Part shown: piece after piece, positions 15,920 through 30,707 of the stretch | Position numbering within the stretch: the stretch's first letter is position 1 | Layout: each line of letters opens with the position of its first letter | Source of the DNA: Bacteroidales bacterium | Lineage (GTDB): Bacteria > Bacteroidota > Bacteroidia > Bacteroidales > UBA932 | NCBI GenBank assembly: GCA_017619655.1 | Contig: JAFZRV010000005.1 | Span: 1-46,295, forward strand | Length of the DNA: 46,295 nt | Direction: 5' to 3' | Program-made: the position numbers and the translations under genes | Notes under the pieces: model-generated | Database searches by the model: none | The model's input: only the letters and a program-made list of their open reading frames with translations | Told to the model about the DNA's origin: nothing

Positions 15920-17161
15920 TTACAAAGATAGCAAATATTTCGCGGCATTGACGCCGGCCAGCGCGCCGGTGGAGAAGGCGATCTGGAGGTTGTAGCCGCC
16001 GGTGTCGCCGTCGAGGTCGAGGACTTCGCCGCAGAAGTACAGGCCCGGTCTCAGGCGCGAGGCCATGGTCTTGGGGACGATCTCCTTGAGGCTGACGCCG
16101 CCGGCGGTCACGACGGCGCGTTCGAAGCCTTTATAGTCGACGATGCGGAACGTCCAGTGTTTCAGCCGTTCGGGCAGGTTTTCGATGGTCAGGTCGGGGT
16201 TGGCGCGCAGGAAGGGCGCGATCAACGATTTGGGCAACAAGCGATAGACTTCCAATGTCGATGAAACGGACTCCGCCGCTCTGGTTTTCGTCCCGCTCGC
16301 AGAAAAATGCTCGCGGATCCGAAAACCACCCGCTTGCTCCGTCCGTTTCATTCGATTGACCAGCTGCTCTTCCGAGAGCGCCGGCTTGAGGTCCAGAACG
16401 ATATCAACCCGCTGGCCGTTGTAGAGCGCCCAGACGGCGCGGCGGCTCAGGTGGTAGGCGATGCCGCTTTCGAGGCCGTCGTTCGTGAAATTGAAGTCGC
16501 CCTGCTCACTCTCCACCAGCGTCCTGTCAATATACAGCTGCAGACCCACGTTTTTCATCTCCAGGCCCGGCAGCCCCGGGTCATAGTCCTTGGGCAGCAG
16601 CGCCGTCTCACTGGGGAAAACGGTCGTAACCGTGTGGCCCGCCTCCCGGGCGAAACGGTAGCCATCGCCGGTCGAACCCGTTACAGGATAGGACTTTCCG
16701 CCCGTGGCGATGATCACGGCGCCGAAATCCGACAGTTCGTCCAGCGAGCCGACCGCAGACCCGTAGCGCACGTCGACGCCCAGCGCCTGCACCCGGTGCT
16801 CGAGCGCCCGCGCCACGTCGCCCGCCACCAGCGAGGCCGGATAGACCCGCTGTCCCTGCTGGGTCACCGTGGGCACGCCTAGTTCTTCTTCGAAAAAGCG
16901 GATCAGGGCCTCGTTGGAAAACGCGCGGAAAGCGAAGCGCAGGAAGCCCTTGTCGGGATACAGGTGCGCGGCGAACTCCTCCCAGGGACGACGGTTCGTC
17001 AGGTTGCATCGGCCCTTGCCGGTCAGGTAGATCTTGCGGCCCAGGCGCTCGTTCTTGTCGAACAGCACCACGCGGCGCCCGTCGCCGAGCGTTTCGGCGG
17101 CCCGGATGGCCGCCATCATGCCGGCGGGACCGCCGCCTACGATGGCCAGGGCGTCACGCAT
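15920..17161 (-). CDS. BaiN/HI0933-family FAD-dependent oxidoreductase carrying an in-frame palindromic insertion
   Basis: A 413-residue flavoprotein of the HI0933/YhiN (aminoacetone oxidase family, BaiN-like) group. The FAD-binding GGGPAGMMAA is at residues 9-18, then LGRKIYLTGKGRCNLTN, VIIATGGKSYP, and the C-terminal FCGEVLDLDGDTGGYNLQ that closes the FAD site. The physiological substrate of most members is unknown. Between NRMKR and LLPKSLI there are 34 residues (including TEQAGGFRIREHFSASGT), where I would expect about 16. This stretch is encoded by a 91-bp palindrome (16261-16351) related to an intergenic repeat near 29632. The reading frame stays open through it, so the protein is probably still made with an extra surface loop. 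The start overlaps the stop of the upstream serine hydrolase gene by one base. Confidence 0.9.
   Translation of the reverse strand: MRDALAIVGGGPAGMMAAIRAAETLGDGRRVVLFDKNERLGRKIYLTGKGRCNLTNRRPWEEFAAHLYPDKGFLRFAFRAFSNEALIRFFEEELGVPTVTQQGQRVYPASLVAGDVARALEHRVQALGVDVRYGSAVGSLDELSDFGAVIIATGGKSYPVTGSTGDGYRFAREAGHTVTTVFPSETALLPKDYDPGLPGLEMKNVGLQLYIDRTLVESEQGDFNFTNDGLESGIAYHLSRRAVWALYNGQRVDIVLDLKPALSEEQLVNRMKRTEQAGGFRIREHFSASGTKTRAAESVSSTLEVYRLLPKSLIAPFLRANPDLTIENLPERLKHWTFRIVDYKGFERAVVTAGGVSLKEIVPKTMASRLRPGLYFCGEVLDLDGDTGGYNLQIAFSTGALAGVNAAKYLLSL
15923..15930 (-). promoter_or_regulatory. -7 box immediately upstream of the GH73 gene
   Basis: The minus strand reads TATCTTTG-TAAGG-ATG: a perfect -7 box with only 5 nt to the start codon. 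It lies in the last codons of the upstream flavoprotein gene. Confidence 0.6.
16261..16351 (-). repeat. Palindromic repeat element inside the flavoprotein gene
   Basis: Outer arms ATGAAACGGAC (16261-16271) and GTCCGTTTCAT (16341-16351) are perfect reverse complements, and inner arms TGGTTTTCG (16282-16290) and CGAAAACCA (16320-16328) form a second nested 9-bp stem. The core 16276-16333, read on the minus strand, aligns with 29632-29688 on the plus strand at 47 of 58 columns (one single-base gap). TCG flanks the element on both sides (16258-16260 and 16352-16354). This is the coding copy of a dispersed palindromic element. Confidence 0.8.
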
Positions 17162-19894: not shown

Positions 19895-19902
19895 TACCTT
19901 TG
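19895..19902 (+). promoter_or_regulatory. -7 box for the SRP RNA gene
   Basis: TACCTTTG, a perfect TAnnTTTG match, lies 5 nt before the first paired base of the SRP RNA, the distance expected for a transcription start. Confidence 0.75.
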
Positions 19903-19906
19903 TGCC

Positions 19907-20010
19907 GGGGTAAGTCGTATACGACCAGCTCCCACTGAACTCCCCCAGGGTCGGAAGGCAGCAAGGGTAGGTGGTTGTAGCGGTGCGATATATCAAGCTT
20001 ACCCTTTTTT
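19907..20010 (+). ncRNA. ffs: Signal recognition particle RNA (4.5S, small bacterial type)
   Basis: The SRP apical loop is clear: CCCAGGGTCGGAAGGCAGCA (19944-19963), with the conserved GGAA tetraloop and AGCA of the symmetric/asymmetric loop that binds Ffh. The ends pair as GGGTAAG (19908-19914) with CTTACCC (19998-20004), closing a hairpin of about 100 nt with no Alu domain. T-runs at 20005-20010 and 20012-20018 end transcription. The RNA works with Ffh and FtsY to target membrane proteins. The stop codon of the convergent cdd gene lies in the second T-run. Confidence 0.93.
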
Positions 20011-24155: not shown

Positions 24156-25529
24156 ATGGAAAAAAATACAATGTCACGTCGTGAGGCCATCCGCGCCCTG
24201 ATGCTCGCCGGAGCGGGCCTGGCCGCGGGTTCCTCCCTCGCCGCAGCACCCCTCCGGGCTGCCGGCGTCCTGCCCCAGAACTGGAAATTCACCGAGCCTG
24301 CCAAGGGCGACCAGGTCATCCACCGCACGTGGAAGACGCTGGGCAACCAAAGCATCAGCCTGCTCGGCATGGGATGCATGCGCTTCCCCCGCAAGGCCGG
24401 CGGCGGCCGCCGCGCCCCGCTCGACCAGGAGGCCATCAACCTGATGATCGACTACGCCCTCGAACACGGCATCAACTATTTCGACACCGCGCCGGCCTAC
24501 GGCGATTCGGAGCGCGCCACGGGAGAGGCCCTCAGCCGCCACAATCGCAAGGACTATCTCATCGCGACCAAGATGTCGAACTTCTCGAACGCCGAACTCG
24601 GCGCCTGCAAGGACATGTTCGCCAACTCGCTGAAAAACCTGCGCACCGACTACGTGGACTACTTCCTGCTCCACTCGATCGGCAGCGTGGAGGACTTCCG
24701 GCAGCGTTTCGTGGACAACGGGCTGCTGCCCTGGCTGCAGGGCCTCCGCAAGAAGGGGACGATCCGGCACCTGGGCTTCTCGTTCCACGGCTCGAACGCC
24801 GCCATGAAGGAGCTGCTGGCGATGCCCTACAACTGGGAATTCGTGCAGATCCAGCTGAACTACGTGGACTGGAAGAACATGCCGCTGGAAGACAGCGACG
24901 AGCCCTGCGACGCGGAAACCCTCTACAAGATGCTGGAGGCCAAGGGAATCCCCGTGGTGATCATGGAGCCCATCCGCGGCGGCGCGCTGGCCAATGTGCC
25001 CAACGCCCTGAAGGACAAGCTGGCGGAGCGTTTCCCGCAGCTGTCGCCCGCCGGCGTGGCGCTGACCTATGCCTCCACCTTCCCGGGCGTGATGTGCACG
25101 CTCAGCGGCATGAGCAACATGCAGCAGCTGATGGAGAATGTCTACACCTTCAGCCACTTCAATCCTTTCACGGAGCAGGACAACGAATACATGATGGAGA
25201 TGGCGCGGCTCTACAACGCCAACCCGCACATCCCCTGCACGGGCTGCCGCTATTGCATGCCGTGCCCGCGCGGCGTGGATATCCCGGGCGTCTTCGGCGT
25301 ATACAACGCCCTCAGCGACGAGCTGATGCTGCCCGATCCGAAGGACAAGAAGGACAAGGCTTACAAGCAGAAGCGGGACGCCTTCCTGAAGCGCTACGCG
25401 ACGCTGAGCAAAGAGGCCAACGCCTCGGCCTGCGTCATGTGCAACGCCTGTCTGCCGAAGTGCCCGCAGCGCATCCGCATCCCCGACCAGATGCGCATGA
25501 TCCACAAACTCGTGAAAGATTTGGGATAA
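24156..25529 (+). CDS. Tat-exported aldo/keto reductase with two C-terminal 4Fe-4S clusters
   Basis: A 457-residue protein. The N-terminus has a twin-arginine-like signal (SRREAIRALMLAG, then AGAGLAAGSSLAAA), so it is probably exported folded with its cofactors. The aldo/keto reductase barrel (about 58-340) shows NYFDTAPAYGDSE, IATKM and FLLHS, which supply the Asp, Tyr, Lys and His of the AKR active site. The C-terminus carries two ferredoxin-like cysteine sets: Cys361, 364, 367 and 371 in CTGCRYCMPCPRG, and Cys426, 429, 432 and 436 in CVMCNACLPKCP. This architecture is common in anaerobes, but substrates are rarely known. It follows galM by 24 nt. Confidence 0.9.
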   Translation: MEKNTMSRREAIRALMLAGAGLAAGSSLAAAPLRAAGVLPQNWKFTEPAKGDQVIHRTWKTLGNQSISLLGMGCMRFPRKAGGGRRAPLDQEAINLMIDYALEHGINYFDTAPAYGDSERATGEALSRHNRKDYLIATKMSNFSNAELGACKDMFANSLKNLRTDYVDYFLLHSIGSVEDFRQRFVDNGLLPWLQGLRKKGTIRHLGFSFHGSNAAMKELLAMPYNWEFVQIQLNYVDWKNMPLEDSDEPCDAETLYKMLEAKGIPVVIMEPIRGGALANVPNALKDKLAERFPQLSPAGVALTYASTFPGVMCTLSGMSNMQQLMENVYTFSHFNPFTEQDNEYMMEMARLYNANPHIPCTGCRYCMPCPRGVDIPGVFGVYNALSDELMLPDPKDKKDKAYKQKRDAFLKRYATLSKEANASACVMCNACLPKCPQRIRIPDQMRMIHKLVKDLG

Positions 25530-25535
25530 GTTTTT

Positions 25536-25565
25536 TTTGCAGTATAAAAAATTTACTTACCTTTG
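25536..25565 (+). promoter_or_regulatory. Promoter of tRNA-Phe
   Basis: A -33 TTTG (25536-25539) and a perfect -7 box TACCTTTG (25558-25565) are separated by 18 nt, and the tRNA starts 13 nt later. This is the most complete two-part Bacteroidota promoter in the window. Confidence 0.8.
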
Positions 25566-25577
25566 CAGTCCCAATCC

Positions 25578-25650
25578 GGTGCTGTAGCTCAGATGGTAGA
25601 GCAATGGACTGAAAATCCATGTGTCGGCAGTTCGATTCTTCCCAGCACCA
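25578..25650 (+). tRNA. tRNA-Phe (anticodon GAA)
   Basis: The cloverleaf is complete: acceptor GGTGCTG with CAGCACC, D-arm GCTCAGATGGTAGAGC, anticodon stem ATGGA/TCCAT around the loop CTGAAAA (anticodon GAA), and T-loop TTCGATT. The T-stem GGCAG/CTTCC has one C-T mismatch. The discriminator is A and no CCA is encoded, so the 3' end must be made by RNase Z and CCA-adding enzyme. Confidence 0.97.
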
Positions 25651-25651
25651 C

Positions 25652-25682
25652 AAAAAAGGCTTGCTCGATGCAAGCCTTTTTT
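25652..25682 (+). terminator. Intrinsic terminator after tRNA-Phe
   Basis: The stem GGCTTGC (25658-25664) pairs with GCAAGCC (25670-25676), 5-nt loop, flanked by A6 on the left and T6 on the right. The A-tract begins 2 nt after the tRNA end. This is a textbook, nearly bidirectional terminator. Confidence 0.9.
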
Positions 25683-25683
25683 G

Positions 25684-25691
25684 TATTTTTG
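25684..25691 (+). promoter_or_regulatory. -7 box for priA
   Basis: TATTTTTG fits TAnnTTTG, begins 2 nt after the T-run of the tRNA terminator and ends 7 nt before the priA ATG, so the priA mRNA should have almost no leader. Confidence 0.55.
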
Positions 25692-25698
25692 TCTTGTT

Positions 25699-27729
25699 AT
25701 GGCCGTGGAGAAGAGATATGTCGAGGTGCTGCTGCCTCTGAAATTGAAGGATACGCTGAGCTACCGGCTGCCGCAGGGCTGGCCGGTGGAGGAGGGGAGC
25801 TGGGTGCAGGTGCCGCTGCGCGGGCATCCGGCGCTGGGCGTCGTGCTGCAGGTCCGTGACAGCGCGCCCGTCGGCGTCAATCTCTCCGCCATCGAGCCGG
25901 TAGACGCCGTGCTGGACATCCCGGCTGCGAGCGTCCAGGAACGATGCTTCTGGCGCGCCATTGCCGACTACTATCTCTGCACCCCCGGCGAAGTGCTCAA
26001 GGCCGCCTTCAACGCCGGCATTCAGAAACAGATGCTGCAGCCGCCCAAGGCCCGCAAGAGCAAGAAGAAAGCGGAGGAGGCGCCCCTGGCGGACTTGGCC
26101 ACGCTGTCCGACGCCCAGCAGGCCGCCCTCGACCAGATCCGCGCCGGTTTCGCCCAGCACAAGCCCGTGCTGCTGCACGGCGTGACGGGCAGCGGCAAGA
26201 CCGAAATCTACCTGCATCTGGCTGCCGAGCAGCTGCGACAGGGCCGCGACGTGCTCTATCTCGTCCCCGAGATCGCCATCTCCCAGCAGTTGGAACAGCG
26301 CCTGGCCGCCGTTTTCGGCCCGCAGCTGCTGGTCTACCATTCCCGCACCACCGTGCCCCAGCGCTACCGGGTGATGGATACCCTGCGGCGCGACCCGACC
26401 CCGCGCATCGTGCTGGGGACCCGCTCCGCCGTGTTCCTGCCGTTCCGCCGGCTCGGCCTGGCGGTGGTCGACGAAGAGCACGACCGTTCCTACAAGCAGG
26501 ACGACACGGCGCCCCGCTACAACGGGCGCGACGCGGTGCTGATGCTGGCCGGCCTGCACAAGGCAGACGTGCTGCTGGGCAGCGCAACGCCCTCCTGCGA
26601 AGCGCTTTACAACGTGCAGATCCGCAAGTTCTCCGCGGCGCAGCTGCCCTGCCGCTACTATGGCGGCGCTTCCGCCTCCGTCGAAATCATCGACATGGCG
26701 CAGGCCCTGCGCCTGCACAACGTGGAGGGCTCCTTTTCGCGCAAGCTGCTGAAGGAGATGACTGCCGTGCTCGAGGCCGGCAAGCAGGTGCTGGTGTTCC
26801 GCTCGCGACGGGCCTATGCCCCTGTGGTCCAGTGCGAAGTCTGCGGCGAGGTGGTCCAGTGCCCGCACTGCAACGTGGCGCTGAGCTACCACCGTTTCAA
26901 CAACAGCCTTTCCTGCCATTACTGCGGCTACCACCGCCCGTATACCCTGCGCTGTCCCGCCTGCGACGAGGTGGCGCTGGTGGAGCGGGGGAGCGGTACC
27001 GAAAAGCTGGAAGAAGAGCTGCGGACGGCTTTCCCGGGCCGGACGGTCGCCCGCTTCGACGCCGATACCACGCAAAGCAAGACGGCGGAGGAGAAAATGA
27101 TCCGTGACTTCGCCGCGGGCCGCATCGACATCCTGGTGGGCACCCAGATGATCACCAAGGGCTTCGATTTCGAACGGCTGGCCCTGGTGGCCGTCGTCAG
27201 CGGCGACAGCCTCTTCGCGGTGCAGGATTTCCGCAGCGACGAGCGGGCGTACCAGCTGCTCACCCAGCTGATGGGCCGCTCCGGGCGAAGGGGAGAACCG
27301 GGCCGGCTCGTGATCCAGACTTTCCAACCCGACCATCCGGTGCTGCAGCGCCTGCTCCAGCCCGAAGCGCTTTCCTCTGACGCTTCCGAGGCCTCGGCCG
27401 GCCTGCTGGCCGAGCGCCAGGCTTTCGCCTATCCGCCCTATGTGCGTTTGATTGCGCTGACGGTCAAGGACCGTTACGAGGGCCGCGTGTGGAATGTCTG
27501 CCGCCTGATCCAGGAAGCGGCTGCGTCCATCGGCATCCGCGACATTGCCGGGCCGACTTCACCGGCCGTCGACGTGGTGGCGGGCGAGCACATCGCCCAG
27601 TTCTGGATCAAGCTGCCGCGCGACCGCAGGCTGGCCGCCACCAAGCAAGCGCTCTATGCGCGCATCGACCGGATCGAGCGCGACTTCAAGGGCCATACGA
27701 CCCTGATCATCGATGTGGATCCCGCTTAA
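25699..27729 (+). CDS. priA: Primosomal protein N' (replication restart helicase PriA)
   Basis: A 676-residue superfamily 2 DNA helicase that rebuilds the replisome at stalled forks. The start at 25699 gives MAVEKRYVEVLLPLKLKD, the 3'-end-binding domain; upstream in-frame sequence is the tRNA and its terminator. Walker A GVTGSGKT is at 161-168, Walker B DEEH at 258-261. The zinc-binding insertion has eight cysteines in four pairs (CEVCGEVVQCPHC, then CHYCGYH and CPAC). The helicase C-terminal motif QMITKGFDFERL and GRSGRRGEPG follow. It is somewhat shorter than many relatives but all domains are present. Its stop codon overlaps that of the convergent glycerophosphodiesterase gene. Confidence 0.96.
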   Translation: MAVEKRYVEVLLPLKLKDTLSYRLPQGWPVEEGSWVQVPLRGHPALGVVLQVRDSAPVGVNLSAIEPVDAVLDIPAASVQERCFWRAIADYYLCTPGEVLKAAFNAGIQKQMLQPPKARKSKKKAEEAPLADLATLSDAQQAALDQIRAGFAQHKPVLLHGVTGSGKTEIYLHLAAEQLRQGRDVLYLVPEIAISQQLEQRLAAVFGPQLLVYHSRTTVPQRYRVMDTLRRDPTPRIVLGTRSAVFLPFRRLGLAVVDEEHDRSYKQDDTAPRYNGRDAVLMLAGLHKADVLLGSATPSCEALYNVQIRKFSAAQLPCRYYGGASASVEIIDMAQALRLHNVEGSFSRKLLKEMTAVLEAGKQVLVFRSRRAYAPVVQCEVCGEVVQCPHCNVALSYHRFNNSLSCHYCGYHRPYTLRCPACDEVALVERGSGTEKLEEELRTAFPGRTVARFDADTTQSKTAEEKMIRDFAAGRIDILVGTQMITKGFDFERLALVAVVSGDSLFAVQDFRSDERAYQLLTQLMGRSGRRGEPGRLVIQTFQPDHPVLQRLLQPEALSSDASEASAGLLAERQAFAYPPYVRLIALTVKDRYEGRVWNVCRLIQEAAASIGIRDIAGPTSPAVDVVAGEHIAQFWIKLPRDRRLAATKQALYARIDRIERDFKGHTTLIIDVDPA

Positions 27730-28540: not shown

Positions 28541-28586
28541 CAATTTTTCTTCTTGTTTTGTGCTTGCAAATCAGAACATTTATCCA

Positions 28587-28594
28587 TATTTTTG
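28587..28594 (+). promoter_or_regulatory. -7 box for the Gate-domain gene
   Basis: TATTTTTG fits TAnnTTTG. The predicted transcription start falls at about the ATG at 28599 that opens a six-codon reading frame. Confidence 0.5.
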
Positions 28595-28598
28595 CGGC

Positions 28599-28619
28599 AT
28601 GATGAAGGACATTCGATGA
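28599..28619 (+). other. Possible six-codon leader ORF coupled to the Gate-domain gene
   Basis: ATG at 28599 opens MMKDIR and ends in TGA at 28617-28619, overlapping the ATG of the main gene (28616) as ATGA. The same stretch contains AAGGA 6 nt before the main ATG, which could simply be a Shine-Dalgarno site, so translation of the mini-ORF is uncertain. Confidence 0.3.
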
Positions 28620-29557
28620 AACAGGAAACCAAAGACCGGATCGTGCGCTGCGTGAAGGAAGTGCTGCCTTCCACGACGAAGACCTGCATCTGGATCATCA
28701 AGATCACGGTGGCGGTGTCCTTCGCCATGATGCTGCTCAAGTATTTCGACATCCTGCCCTGGATCTCGGACGCCGTCAGCCCGGTCTTCCGGATCTTCGG
28801 CCTGCCCGGCGCGGCGGCGCTGGCCTACGTGTCGGGCTATTTCGTGAACGTCTATTCCTGCATCGCCGTGATGACCACGCTCGAGCTCGACTGGCGCGCC
28901 CTGACCATCCTCTGTACGATGGTCATGTGCTCCCATTCGATGGTGCTGGAAACGGCCGTGCTGAAGAAAACCGGCGCCAACGGCGTCCGCATGGTCATCG
29001 TCCGGACCCTGAGCGCCTTCATCCTGGGCATCGTCCTCAACCGTATCCTCCCCGGCAGCGCCGACCTGACGACCGAGGCCATCGCCGCGGGCGAAAAGCT
29101 GCCCTTCCTGACGACCCTCTGGGAGTGGGTCCTGTCGGCCCTGAAGCTGGTGCTGATGATGGTCGCCATCATCTATACGCTCAACATCGTGCAGCGCCTG
29201 CTGCGCGAATTCGGCATCATGGAGAAGATCGCGAAAGTCTTCCGGCCGCTCATGCGCGTCTTCGGCCTGCCGACCAACACCGTCTTTCTCTGGATCGTCG
29301 CCAACATCATCGGCCTCGGCTACGGCGCGGCGGCCATGCTCGACGAGATGGGCCGCGGCGAAGTCAGCCGCCGCGACGTCCTGCTCCTCGACACGCACAT
29401 CTGCATCTCCCACAGCAACCTCGAGGACCTGCTGCTCCTGACCGCCTGCGGGGCCGTCTGGTGGATCATGCTACTCTCTCGTTGGGCCATGTCCATCATC
29501 CTCGTTTGGGAACAACGATTGGAGTTCTATCTCAGGCGCAACAAAACGACGGAATAA
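28616..29557 (+). CDS. Gate-domain (nucleoside-recognition) membrane protein
   Basis: A 313-residue integral membrane protein with about seven or eight hydrophobic helices and two Gate-like halves, the first around residues 35-150 (YFDILPWISDAVSPVFRIFG, YVSGYFVNVYS) and the second around 165-300 (MEKIAKVFRPLMRVFGLP, IIGLGYGAAAM). Gate domains occur in nucleoside transporters, FeoB and SpmA/SpmB-like proteins and are thought to form part of a transport path. The substrate of this stand-alone form is unknown; nucleosides are only one possibility. AAGGA precedes the start at good spacing. It is divergent from the glycerophosphodiesterase gene. Confidence 0.8.
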   Translation: MKQETKDRIVRCVKEVLPSTTKTCIWIIKITVAVSFAMMLLKYFDILPWISDAVSPVFRIFGLPGAAALAYVSGYFVNVYSCIAVMTTLELDWRALTILCTMVMCSHSMVLETAVLKKTGANGVRMVIVRTLSAFILGIVLNRILPGSADLTTEAIAAGEKLPFLTTLWEWVLSALKLVLMMVAIIYTLNIVQRLLREFGIMEKIAKVFRPLMRVFGLPTNTVFLWIVANIIGLGYGAAAMLDEMGRGEVSRRDVLLLDTHICISHSNLEDLLLLTACGAVWWIMLLSRWAMSIILVWEQRLEFYLRRNKTTE

Positions 29558-29575: not shown

Positions 29576-29601
29576 CGGACTATTCGTTCGGACTATTCGT
29601 T
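29576..29601 (+). repeat. Perfect 13-bp tandem duplication
   Basis: CGGACTATTCGTT occurs twice without a gap (29576-29588 and 29589-29601). The second copy runs into a hairpin, CTATTCGT (29593-29600) with ACGAATAG (29613-29620), loop 12 nt. It lies just after the Gate-domain gene in the 217-bp gap before trxB. Confidence 0.75.
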
Positions 29602-29617
29602 CTGACTCAACGACGAA

Positions 29618-29699
29618 TAGCGAGCGCAGCCGCGGGTGGTATTCGGCGAAGCGACCTTTTTTTGGGAGCGAGACGAATACCAGAGCGGTGTAGCGAGCG
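29618..29699 (+). repeat. Intergenic copy of the dispersed palindromic element
   Basis: The core 29632-29688 aligns with the inverse of 16276-16333 at 47 of 58 columns. It holds a 9-bp stem TGGTATTCG (29637-29645) with CGAATACCA (29674-29682), where the other copy has TGGTTTTCG with CGAAAACCA, a compensatory change. The loop contains seven Ts. The core is flanked by a 9-bp direct repeat TAGCGAGCG (29618-29626 and 29691-29699), which could be a target duplication or part of the element. Confidence 0.78.
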
Positions 29700-29738
29700 A
29701 TTGTCTACGAGAAAGCTATTATTATACAAAAAAATAAC

Positions 29739-29774: not shown

Positions 29775-30707
29775 ATGGATAAAAATACGACGAAATGCCT
29801 CATCATCGGTAGCGGCCCGGCCGGCTATACGGCAGCCATCTACGCTGCCCGCGCCGCCCTCGAACCCGTGCTGTACGAAGGCCTCCAGCCCGGCGGCCAG
29901 CTCACCACCACCACGGTCATCGAGAACTTCCCCGGCTACCCCGACGGCATCGACGCCAACCAGCTGATGAGCGACATGCGCGCCCAGGCCGTCAACCTCG
30001 GCGCAGATGTCCGTTCCGGCATGGTGACGTCCGTCGACCTGTCGAAACGGCCCTTCGCCGTAACCGTCGACGACGGGAAGACGATCATGGCGGAAACCTT
30101 GATCATCGCCACCGGCGCGACCGCCAAATACCTCGGCCTGCCCAGCGAAGAGAAGTTCCGGGGCTTCGGCGTCAGCGCCTGCGCCACCTGCGACGGCTTC
30201 TTCTATCGTGGCAAAGATGTTGCAGTGGTTGGCGGCGGCGATACCGCCTGTGAGGAAGCCACCTACCTGGCCCATCTCTGCAAGAAAGTCTACATGATCG
30301 TCCGCCGCAATGTCCTCCGCGCCTCGAAAGCCATGCAGGAACGCGTCATGCAGACCCCGAACATCGAGATCCTCTGGGAGTGCCAGACCCGGGAAGTCCT
30401 GGGCGACGCCAGCGGCGTGACCGGCGTCCGCCTTGTGCGCAAGAGCGGGGAAGAGTTCGAGAAACCCATCGACGGATTCTTCCTGGCCATCGGCCACCAC
30501 CCCCAGTCCGACCTCTTCAAGGAGTGGATCGAGACCGACGAGAACGGCTATATCGTGACCGACGGGAAAAGCTCCCGGACCAGCGTGGAAGGCGTCTTCG
30601 CAGCAGGCGACGTGCAGGATCCACAGTATCGCCAGGCCATCGCGGCTGCCGGCAGCGGCTGCCGGGCGGCCCTGGATGCCGAACGATACATTTTGTCAAG
30701 ACAATGA
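29775..30707 (+). CDS. trxB: Thioredoxin-disulfide reductase
   Basis: A 310-residue low-molecular-weight flavoenzyme that uses NADPH to reduce thioredoxin in the cytoplasm. The FAD motif GSGPAG is at 12-17, the redox-active pair is Cys136 and Cys139 in ACATCDGFF, the NADPH motif is VVGGGDTACEEA (about 151-162), and the C-terminal FAD-binding FAAGDVQDPQYRQ is present. Length is typical. It has its own promoter downstream of the palindromic repeat region and overlaps the bamD start by 4 nt (ATGA), so trxB-bamD-rpoZ-recN-nagB can be one transcript. Confidence 0.97.
   Translation: MDKNTTKCLIIGSGPAGYTAAIYAARAALEPVLYEGLQPGGQLTTTTVIENFPGYPDGIDANQLMSDMRAQAVNLGADVRSGMVTSVDLSKRPFAVTVDDGKTIMAETLIIATGATAKYLGLPSEEKFRGFGVSACATCDGFFYRGKDVAVVGGGDTACEEATYLAHLCKKVYMIVRRNVLRASKAMQERVMQTPNIEILWECQTREVLGDASGVTGVRLVRKSGEEFEKPIDGFFLAIGHHPQSDLFKEWIETDENGYIVTDGKSSRTSVEGVFAAGDVQDPQYRQAIAAAGSGCRAALDAERYILSRQ

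Follow-up and report, generated by a model that had tools for sequence, protein, structure and literature searches.

The closest described systems are the Rickettsia palindromic elements (RPEs), which, in the passages of a 2024 review that deal with them (PMC10969869), are about 150 bp long, form ten families and lie in frame within unrelated genes of Rickettsia, an intracellular genus in which such in-frame elements are described as unusually frequent. The pertinent sections of PMC3733652 report REPs inside genes in several species, and among them CGTC-tagged REPs (including RPE-4 and RPE-6) that occur in Bacteroidetes, have intragenic copies and are without a dedicated transposase. Within the Bacteroidales, the passages on repeats in a study of Porphyromonas gingivalis (PMC5771137) treat MITEs and mention no in-frame element. 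Coding genes of nematomorph mitochondria also contain inverted repeats, although the part of PMC6649704 concerned with these palindromes describes no dispersed family. Template switching both creates and homogenises inverted repeats, coding ones included, according to the relevant portions of PMC8794818 and PMC8604942. Among the best matches of a literature search on palindromic elements in genes, no title concerned translated ones in Bacteroidales.

The element considered here comes from a window of 46,295 nt, i.e., the whole stretch of DNA analysed, and is called A; this name and those of two further elements, B and C, are conveniences given in this work. A parallel might be struck with the RPEs in that A is likewise dispersed, palindromic and found in frame inside protein genes, with several families coexisting in both cases. 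A nevertheless has a core of only 56 nt against the roughly 150 bp of the ten Rickettsia families, a distinction drawn from descriptions rather than sequences, and both A and C can carry locus-specific inverted arms, which go unmentioned in the passages of PMC10969869. B shares the form of the CGTC-tagged REPs, whereas A and C, both longer, are without the CGTC tag and can bear such arms; A has no terminal unpaired CGTC/TGTC tag. With the GTAG-tagged REPs and their RAYT enzymes the common ground consists of small hairpins and of Y1 transposases in the genus, but GTAG stands in only 39 of 116 left flanks of A. Like the MITEs, A is small, many-copy and hairpin-forming, but its outer inverted repeats, where present, vary from locus to locus.

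The copy with which the analysis began lies in a gene that the initial annotation had called an HI0933-type flavoprotein, an identity confirmed by the TIGR00275 match (E 8e-102). Its nested inverted repeats, with 11-bp outer arms (Table 1) and 9-bp inner arms (16282-16290/16320-16328), were both found to be perfect as first described, and the 91 nt from 16261 to 16351, folded as minus-strand DNA, reach -26.7 kcal/mol (z -6.0), equalled by 0 of 200 dinucleotide shuffles. The hand alignment of 16276-16333 (minus strand) with 29632-29688 (plus strand) was reproduced at 47 of 58 identical columns, a value matched by 0 of 1000 shuffles; one inner-stem pair differs, T-A in the flavoprotein copy and A-T in the intergenic one, with pairing preserved, as had been claimed. 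What had to be given up is the inclusion of the 11-bp outer arms in the element, for they are absent from the 29.6-kb copy and from the family, whose core corresponds to 16278-16333. The upstream arm is probably original gene sequence, because homologues keep its R-M-K-R as R-x-x-R.

Table 1. Coordinates of the flavoprotein gene, the two copies of element A and their surroundings in the window.
Feature	Position	Strand	Remarks
Flavoprotein gene, HI0933-like / TIGR00275 aminoacetone-oxidase-family FAD enzyme	15920..17161	-	413 aa; frame open across the element
Core of element A (56 nt) in the flavoprotein gene	16278..16333	-	codons of residues 277-295, AGGFRIREHFSASGTKTRA; 81.9 bits with covariance model R1
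Outer arm, upstream (gene-sense) side	16341..16351		encodes part of R-M-K-R
Outer arm, downstream side	16261..16271		inverted copy of 16341..16351; without counterpart in element-less homologues
Short spacer, core to downstream arm	16272..16277
Short spacer, core to upstream arm	16334..16340
Second element A core, intergenic	29632..29686	+	78.6 bits
Upstream ORF	28553..29557	+	334 aa; stops 74 bp short of the 29632 core
Downstream ORF	29775..30707	+	310 aa; next to the intergenic copy

The intergenic copy (29615-29705) folds less clearly, with z -1.8 on the plus strand and 13 of 200 shuffles as good. The ORF downstream of it is, judging from its sequence, presumably thioredoxin-reductase-like. 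A 346-aa ORF spanning the copy at 29632 was treated as spurious because it failed a codon-position test and runs in a different frame from the upstream 334-aa ORF. Just upstream of the copy, at 29580-29620, lie short repeats, CTATTCGT (two copies) and ACGAATAG. Elsewhere the window contains the Bacteroidales small SRP RNA (19901-20008, Rfam RF04183). An Rfam scan of the window and nine loci at the gathering score returned only SRP RNA and tRNAs and no match to an element, by which a reading of the elements as an RNA family was ruled out.

A search of the source genome (1.40 Mb, 60.65% complete) with the flavoprotein element gave 14 matches. A stem pattern picked out seven places there, six of them A, and none in the reversed control; the remaining place (C11:116375) was excluded, its interior being shorter and different. 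Alignment of 18 A copies yielded 14 predicted pairs in RNAalifold, six of which are changed on both sides, i.e., compensated, among the copies of this genome, and the inner-stem pair that differs between the window copies is A-U in nine, U-A in five and G-C in four of the 18. The covariance model built from these copies (R1) gave 313 matches at E <= 0.001, with at most 142 candidates scored per genome, in 19 of 40 genomes of the genus, this one included; the richest have 52, 48, 37 (the source genome), 32, 22, 22 and 21 copies. The small dispersed palindromic family that the initial annotation proposed for this lineage thus exists, and since further copies are present in the genome and its relatives its mobile-repeat reading survives. 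Across 84,980 species genomes one exact core pattern occurs in 79 stretches, all titled Bacteroidales or Bacteroidia and none Rickettsia, many of them from goat, deer, buffalo or rumen. Carriage of A by phages or plasmids was ruled out by empty searches of viral contigs with one core pattern and of phages and plasmids with the window element.

In sequence A takes the form GCGGG...AGAGC with GC-rich flanks. The heptamer GCGNAGC, which as d(GCGNAGC) forms unusually stable DNA mini-hairpins, is found no more than about 14 nt away from the core, to its left in 74 of 116 located copies and to its right likewise in 74 of 116 (e.g., window 29615-29705). These 116 are high-scoring matches rather than a random sample, four of them (L023-L025, L033) having been added for lying in the flavoprotein gene; most are intergenic and a minority lie inside genes. 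A stop-free core was considered as an adaptation, for which the case is weak: 80 of the 116 cores are without stop trinucleotides on both strands, and shuffling leaves one A consensus stop-free on both strands in 27% of cases and another in 0.4%. In one genome (G004), two contigs (C8, about 91260-92620, and C9, about 24410-25770) carry paired A copies of equal spacing and scores, which suggests that a segment has been duplicated, in the genome or by the assembly.

The outer arms are locus-specific and stand outside the A family. In two relatives the flavoprotein arms differ in sequence (CTGCAACGGG, ATGCAACGGG) yet are complementary but for one pair. Over the flavoprotein A copies of four species the covariation is 0.214 against 0.091 in shuffles (0 of 500 reach it), and three pairs of the outer helix are compensated; the fourth species (L024) breaks this helix by four mismatches and two gaps, besides pair 19/89, which is unpaired in three of the four rows. 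Of the 116 copies, 110 entered an arm test after loci with identical or short flanks were dropped, and arms of at least 8 bp were present in 13 of them against 0.52 expected when right flanks were swapped, with 0 of 300 rounds giving as many. The scan offsets were picked after viewing the alignments: skipping 9 nt gives 8 of 110 against 0.62, and skipping 4 nt the 13 against 0.52. The other 97 A copies are without arms of this length, as are all 38 copies of B examined (0/38), which means that arm growth is not general; a reading of the arms as a general property of hairpins was rejected on account of B.

Twenty-two of the 116 located copies are enclosed by a long open frame that shows a coding-type codon signal before and after the copy, a proportion that is not a rate because the 116 are not a random sample; these 22 were selected by their open frame, and it is the homologue sets below that carry the frame argument. 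In the source genome the genes concerned encode the flavoprotein, DnaX (reversed), an ABC-F ATPase (two copies), an HU-CCDC81 protein, a NapH/NapG-like ferredoxin protein, PduO, HydF and a protein without a Pfam match (L099). Both orientations and several phases are in use, the commonest frame reading AGGFRxREHFSASGTKxRA; one fixed reading frame for A was accordingly rejected. Pfam domains are matched in two stretches, the better one beginning after the insert (PF01923, PF18133, PF01980), those of HydF and PduO among them. The ABC-F frame (L095:1358-3322) is a single one with two A copies and, at two sites, apparent pieces of CGTC REPs. By eye, one ABC-F site has A and B in this genome and C in three relatives.

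B has the form CGTC-stem-loop-stem-CTC, with the CGTC tag, a stem of 8-9 bp and a loop of 4-5 nt in 38 copies, which have tag and stem by construction since the search pattern requires both. C was sought as GCGCGnCAGAACC...GAACCnGnCGCTCCACCAGGCC, of which 32 exact copies occur in 11 of the 40 genomes and 0 in the reversed control. Those read (L365-L394) have 28 distinct inner hairpins, all of which fold with 11-14 pairs despite their different sequences, as if these, too, were kept complementary.

Four genes, encoding the flavoprotein, PduO, HydF and TrmO, were compared with one genome per species. The flavoprotein set (30 loci aligned out of 36 same-genus genomes with a match) has A in four linkers, reversed A in one, C in three (one reversed) and B in four (three decayed), with one unclear insert and 17 linkers without a recognised element; one of the latter (L039) shows an apparent 3' scar of A. 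The peptide is thus not universal among the homologues, in keeping with the initial annotation. In PduO (23 loci, L305-L327; L328-L334 were left out as weaker matches, probably a paralogue) six linkers have A, at least two of them also with B, one has C, three have B alone and 13 have none or are unclear. One of these PduO genes without a clear element (L327, G026) falls into two frames downstream of its linker. Disrupted PduO copies may also exist in four other genomes, because the search found weaker matches only (G001, G014, G033) or no match (G021). HydF (20 of 30 loci, L335-L354) has A in four, two also with B, B alone in four (one decayed) and none or unclear in 12. TrmO (21 loci, L395-L415) has C in two, a C variant in one, remnants in two (L398 and L399, outside the element count), arms alone in one and no element seen in 15, including L403, which did not parse and is absent from the tree.

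Run over all 94 linker loci, model R1 recovers 15 copies of A (five flavoprotein, six PduO, four HydF and 0 TrmO), the same as by eye, and the C tail motif is present in seven of seven C linkers. The strict B pattern matches six linkers (L026, L305, L306, L335, L338, L345); the remaining B linkers were classed by a loose pattern or by eye, three of them (L029, L030, L341) fitting neither pattern, and L323, which looks like a further decayed B, was not counted, nor were L034 and L347. In all 33 element linkers (15 A, 7 C, 11 B alone) the protein is homologous before and after the insert, and a single open frame runs through with no stop. The claim that the element can enter coding sequence without breaking the frame accordingly holds, and extends to PduO, HydF, TrmO and ABC-F. 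The simplest reading is that the inserts are translated, since all 33 are in frame and bypass or splicing would free their length modulo three. The insert probably occupies a surface position.

Of C, 29 copies had usable flanks; 13 of these 29 have arms of at least 8 bp against 0.32 expected, and 10 have arms of at least 10 bp against 0 of 812 swapped pairs, the longest being 28, 26, 25 and 21 bp; these follow from the final of three registers tried, of which a narrow one found none and a wide one gave five of seven at 10 bp or more (swapped pairs reach 9). Element-less TrmO reads like HIWLIWGFSESEGWSPTVRPP, and in three relatives tested has inverted repeats of at most 6 bp. In one species (G010) C is flanked by 25-bp arms, whereas its sister (G022, L400; support 97/97) has a 27-bp perfect palindrome with a 1-nt spacer, coding and without C; the arms of the two differ by one compensated change. 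Another TrmO with C (G017) has imperfect arms, 9 bp of them perfect. The upstream arm would be the inverted copy, because the W-S-P-T codons, which are conserved, fall within the downstream one. The palindrome without C could be a scar or a target, and the TrmO series as a whole fits fold-back template switching.

Taken together, A can be seen, with a probability of about three in four, as a non-autonomous hairpin-forming dispersed repeat akin to RPEs and REPs, whose arms are made or homogenised by fold-back template switching. Copies that land in frame within a tolerant linker would survive and be read through as some 20-30 extra residues. From species to species the same linkers hold A, a CGTC-type REP (B) or the palindromic family C. 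The longer outer arms would be inverted copies of neighbouring host sequence, which fold-back template switching at the hairpin during replication would make or keep identical. Dispersal, presence or absence between species, the open frame, the locus-specific arms and the compensated arm changes are directly supported; from them we infer template switching and recent mobility, and one old insertion may be common to several species. Gut Bacteroidales, with three hairpin families at the same enzyme linkers, offer a natural experiment on how loops accept new peptides, and the long locus-specific arms and compensated changes in coding DNA make the origin and movement of the elements testable by strain comparison.

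As for what moves the elements, the initial annotation had pointed to an enzyme encoded elsewhere, which has found no support so far. The Y1 (RAYT-like) transposases of the genus might move them as single-strand hairpins, as has been proposed for GTAG REPs. Y1 (PF01797) is matched in 27 of the 40 genomes (25 over the cut-off), and occurs in 18 of 19 genomes with A against 9 of 21 without (Fisher p 0.0006, kinship ignored); moreover 39 of 116 A copies have GTAG in the 14 nt on their left (right flank 13 of 116). Yet that fraction is far below the more than 90% given for most GTAG families in the section of PMC3733652 concerned, Y1 was not found in one A-bearing genome (G017), the numbers of Y1 and A among the 19 genomes are uncorrelated (rho -0.21, p 0.39), and 13 examined of 68 Y1 matches, two of them from A-less genomes, have no A within about 1.5 kb on each side. 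At one of these Y1 loci a CGTC REP precedes the Y1 open frame by about 160 bp. Mobilisation by Y1 is therefore a tentative proposal, on the unlikely side. It is somewhat more doubtful still that A and C need no transposase of their own and spread by template switching during replication, with up to 28 bp of host flank duplicated in inverted form either at insertion or by fold-back copying later on; if true, such a signature of insertion would differ from the direct duplications that transposons leave, and reverse-complemented host codons would be written along with the element peptide into household enzymes. That the palindromes came first, the elements entering the centre of existing inverted repeats (e.g., terminators) with the arms as target, is an unlikely alternative to arms copied at the hairpin. 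It would account for the palindrome without C in the TrmO of G022 and for the fact that six of 10 examined arm-bearing A loci (one site being counted twice, from two species) stand between convergent genes, at 11-35 nt from either end. Against it, element-less relatives, by eye, have no palindrome or arms downstream of enolase (L167, L173, L175) or pssA (L186, L188), sites at which neither arm was identifiable as original, and three have none at TrmO; of the two arms in the flavoprotein and in TrmO, one is conserved coding sequence while nothing corresponds to the other.

Two further readings would do away with the extra residues or with the elements themselves. Ribosomes might skip the strong hairpins within household genes, or the mRNA might lose them, at no cost to the protein, but bypassing or splicing would require neither the frame nor the freedom from stops seen in 33 of 33 element linkers, and the A inserts use both orientations and several phases, making this very improbable. 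The linkers might also be fast-evolving loops resembling the repeats by chance, given that element-less loops vary in length as well (flavoprotein, PduO and HydF sets); against A matches of 66-84 bits (E 7e-18 to 4e-13) among those listed for the 40 genomes, and of 40-82 bits for the 15 linker copies, this is barely conceivable.

Enolase is 100% identical (rounded) among three genomes (G000, G033 and G004; L164-L166), while the adjoining downstream DNA looks quite different. At this site one of them (L166, G004) has four tandem 17-bp copies of TAGATTCTTCGCTTCGC beside an apparent TGTC-type repeat, where the source genome has A.
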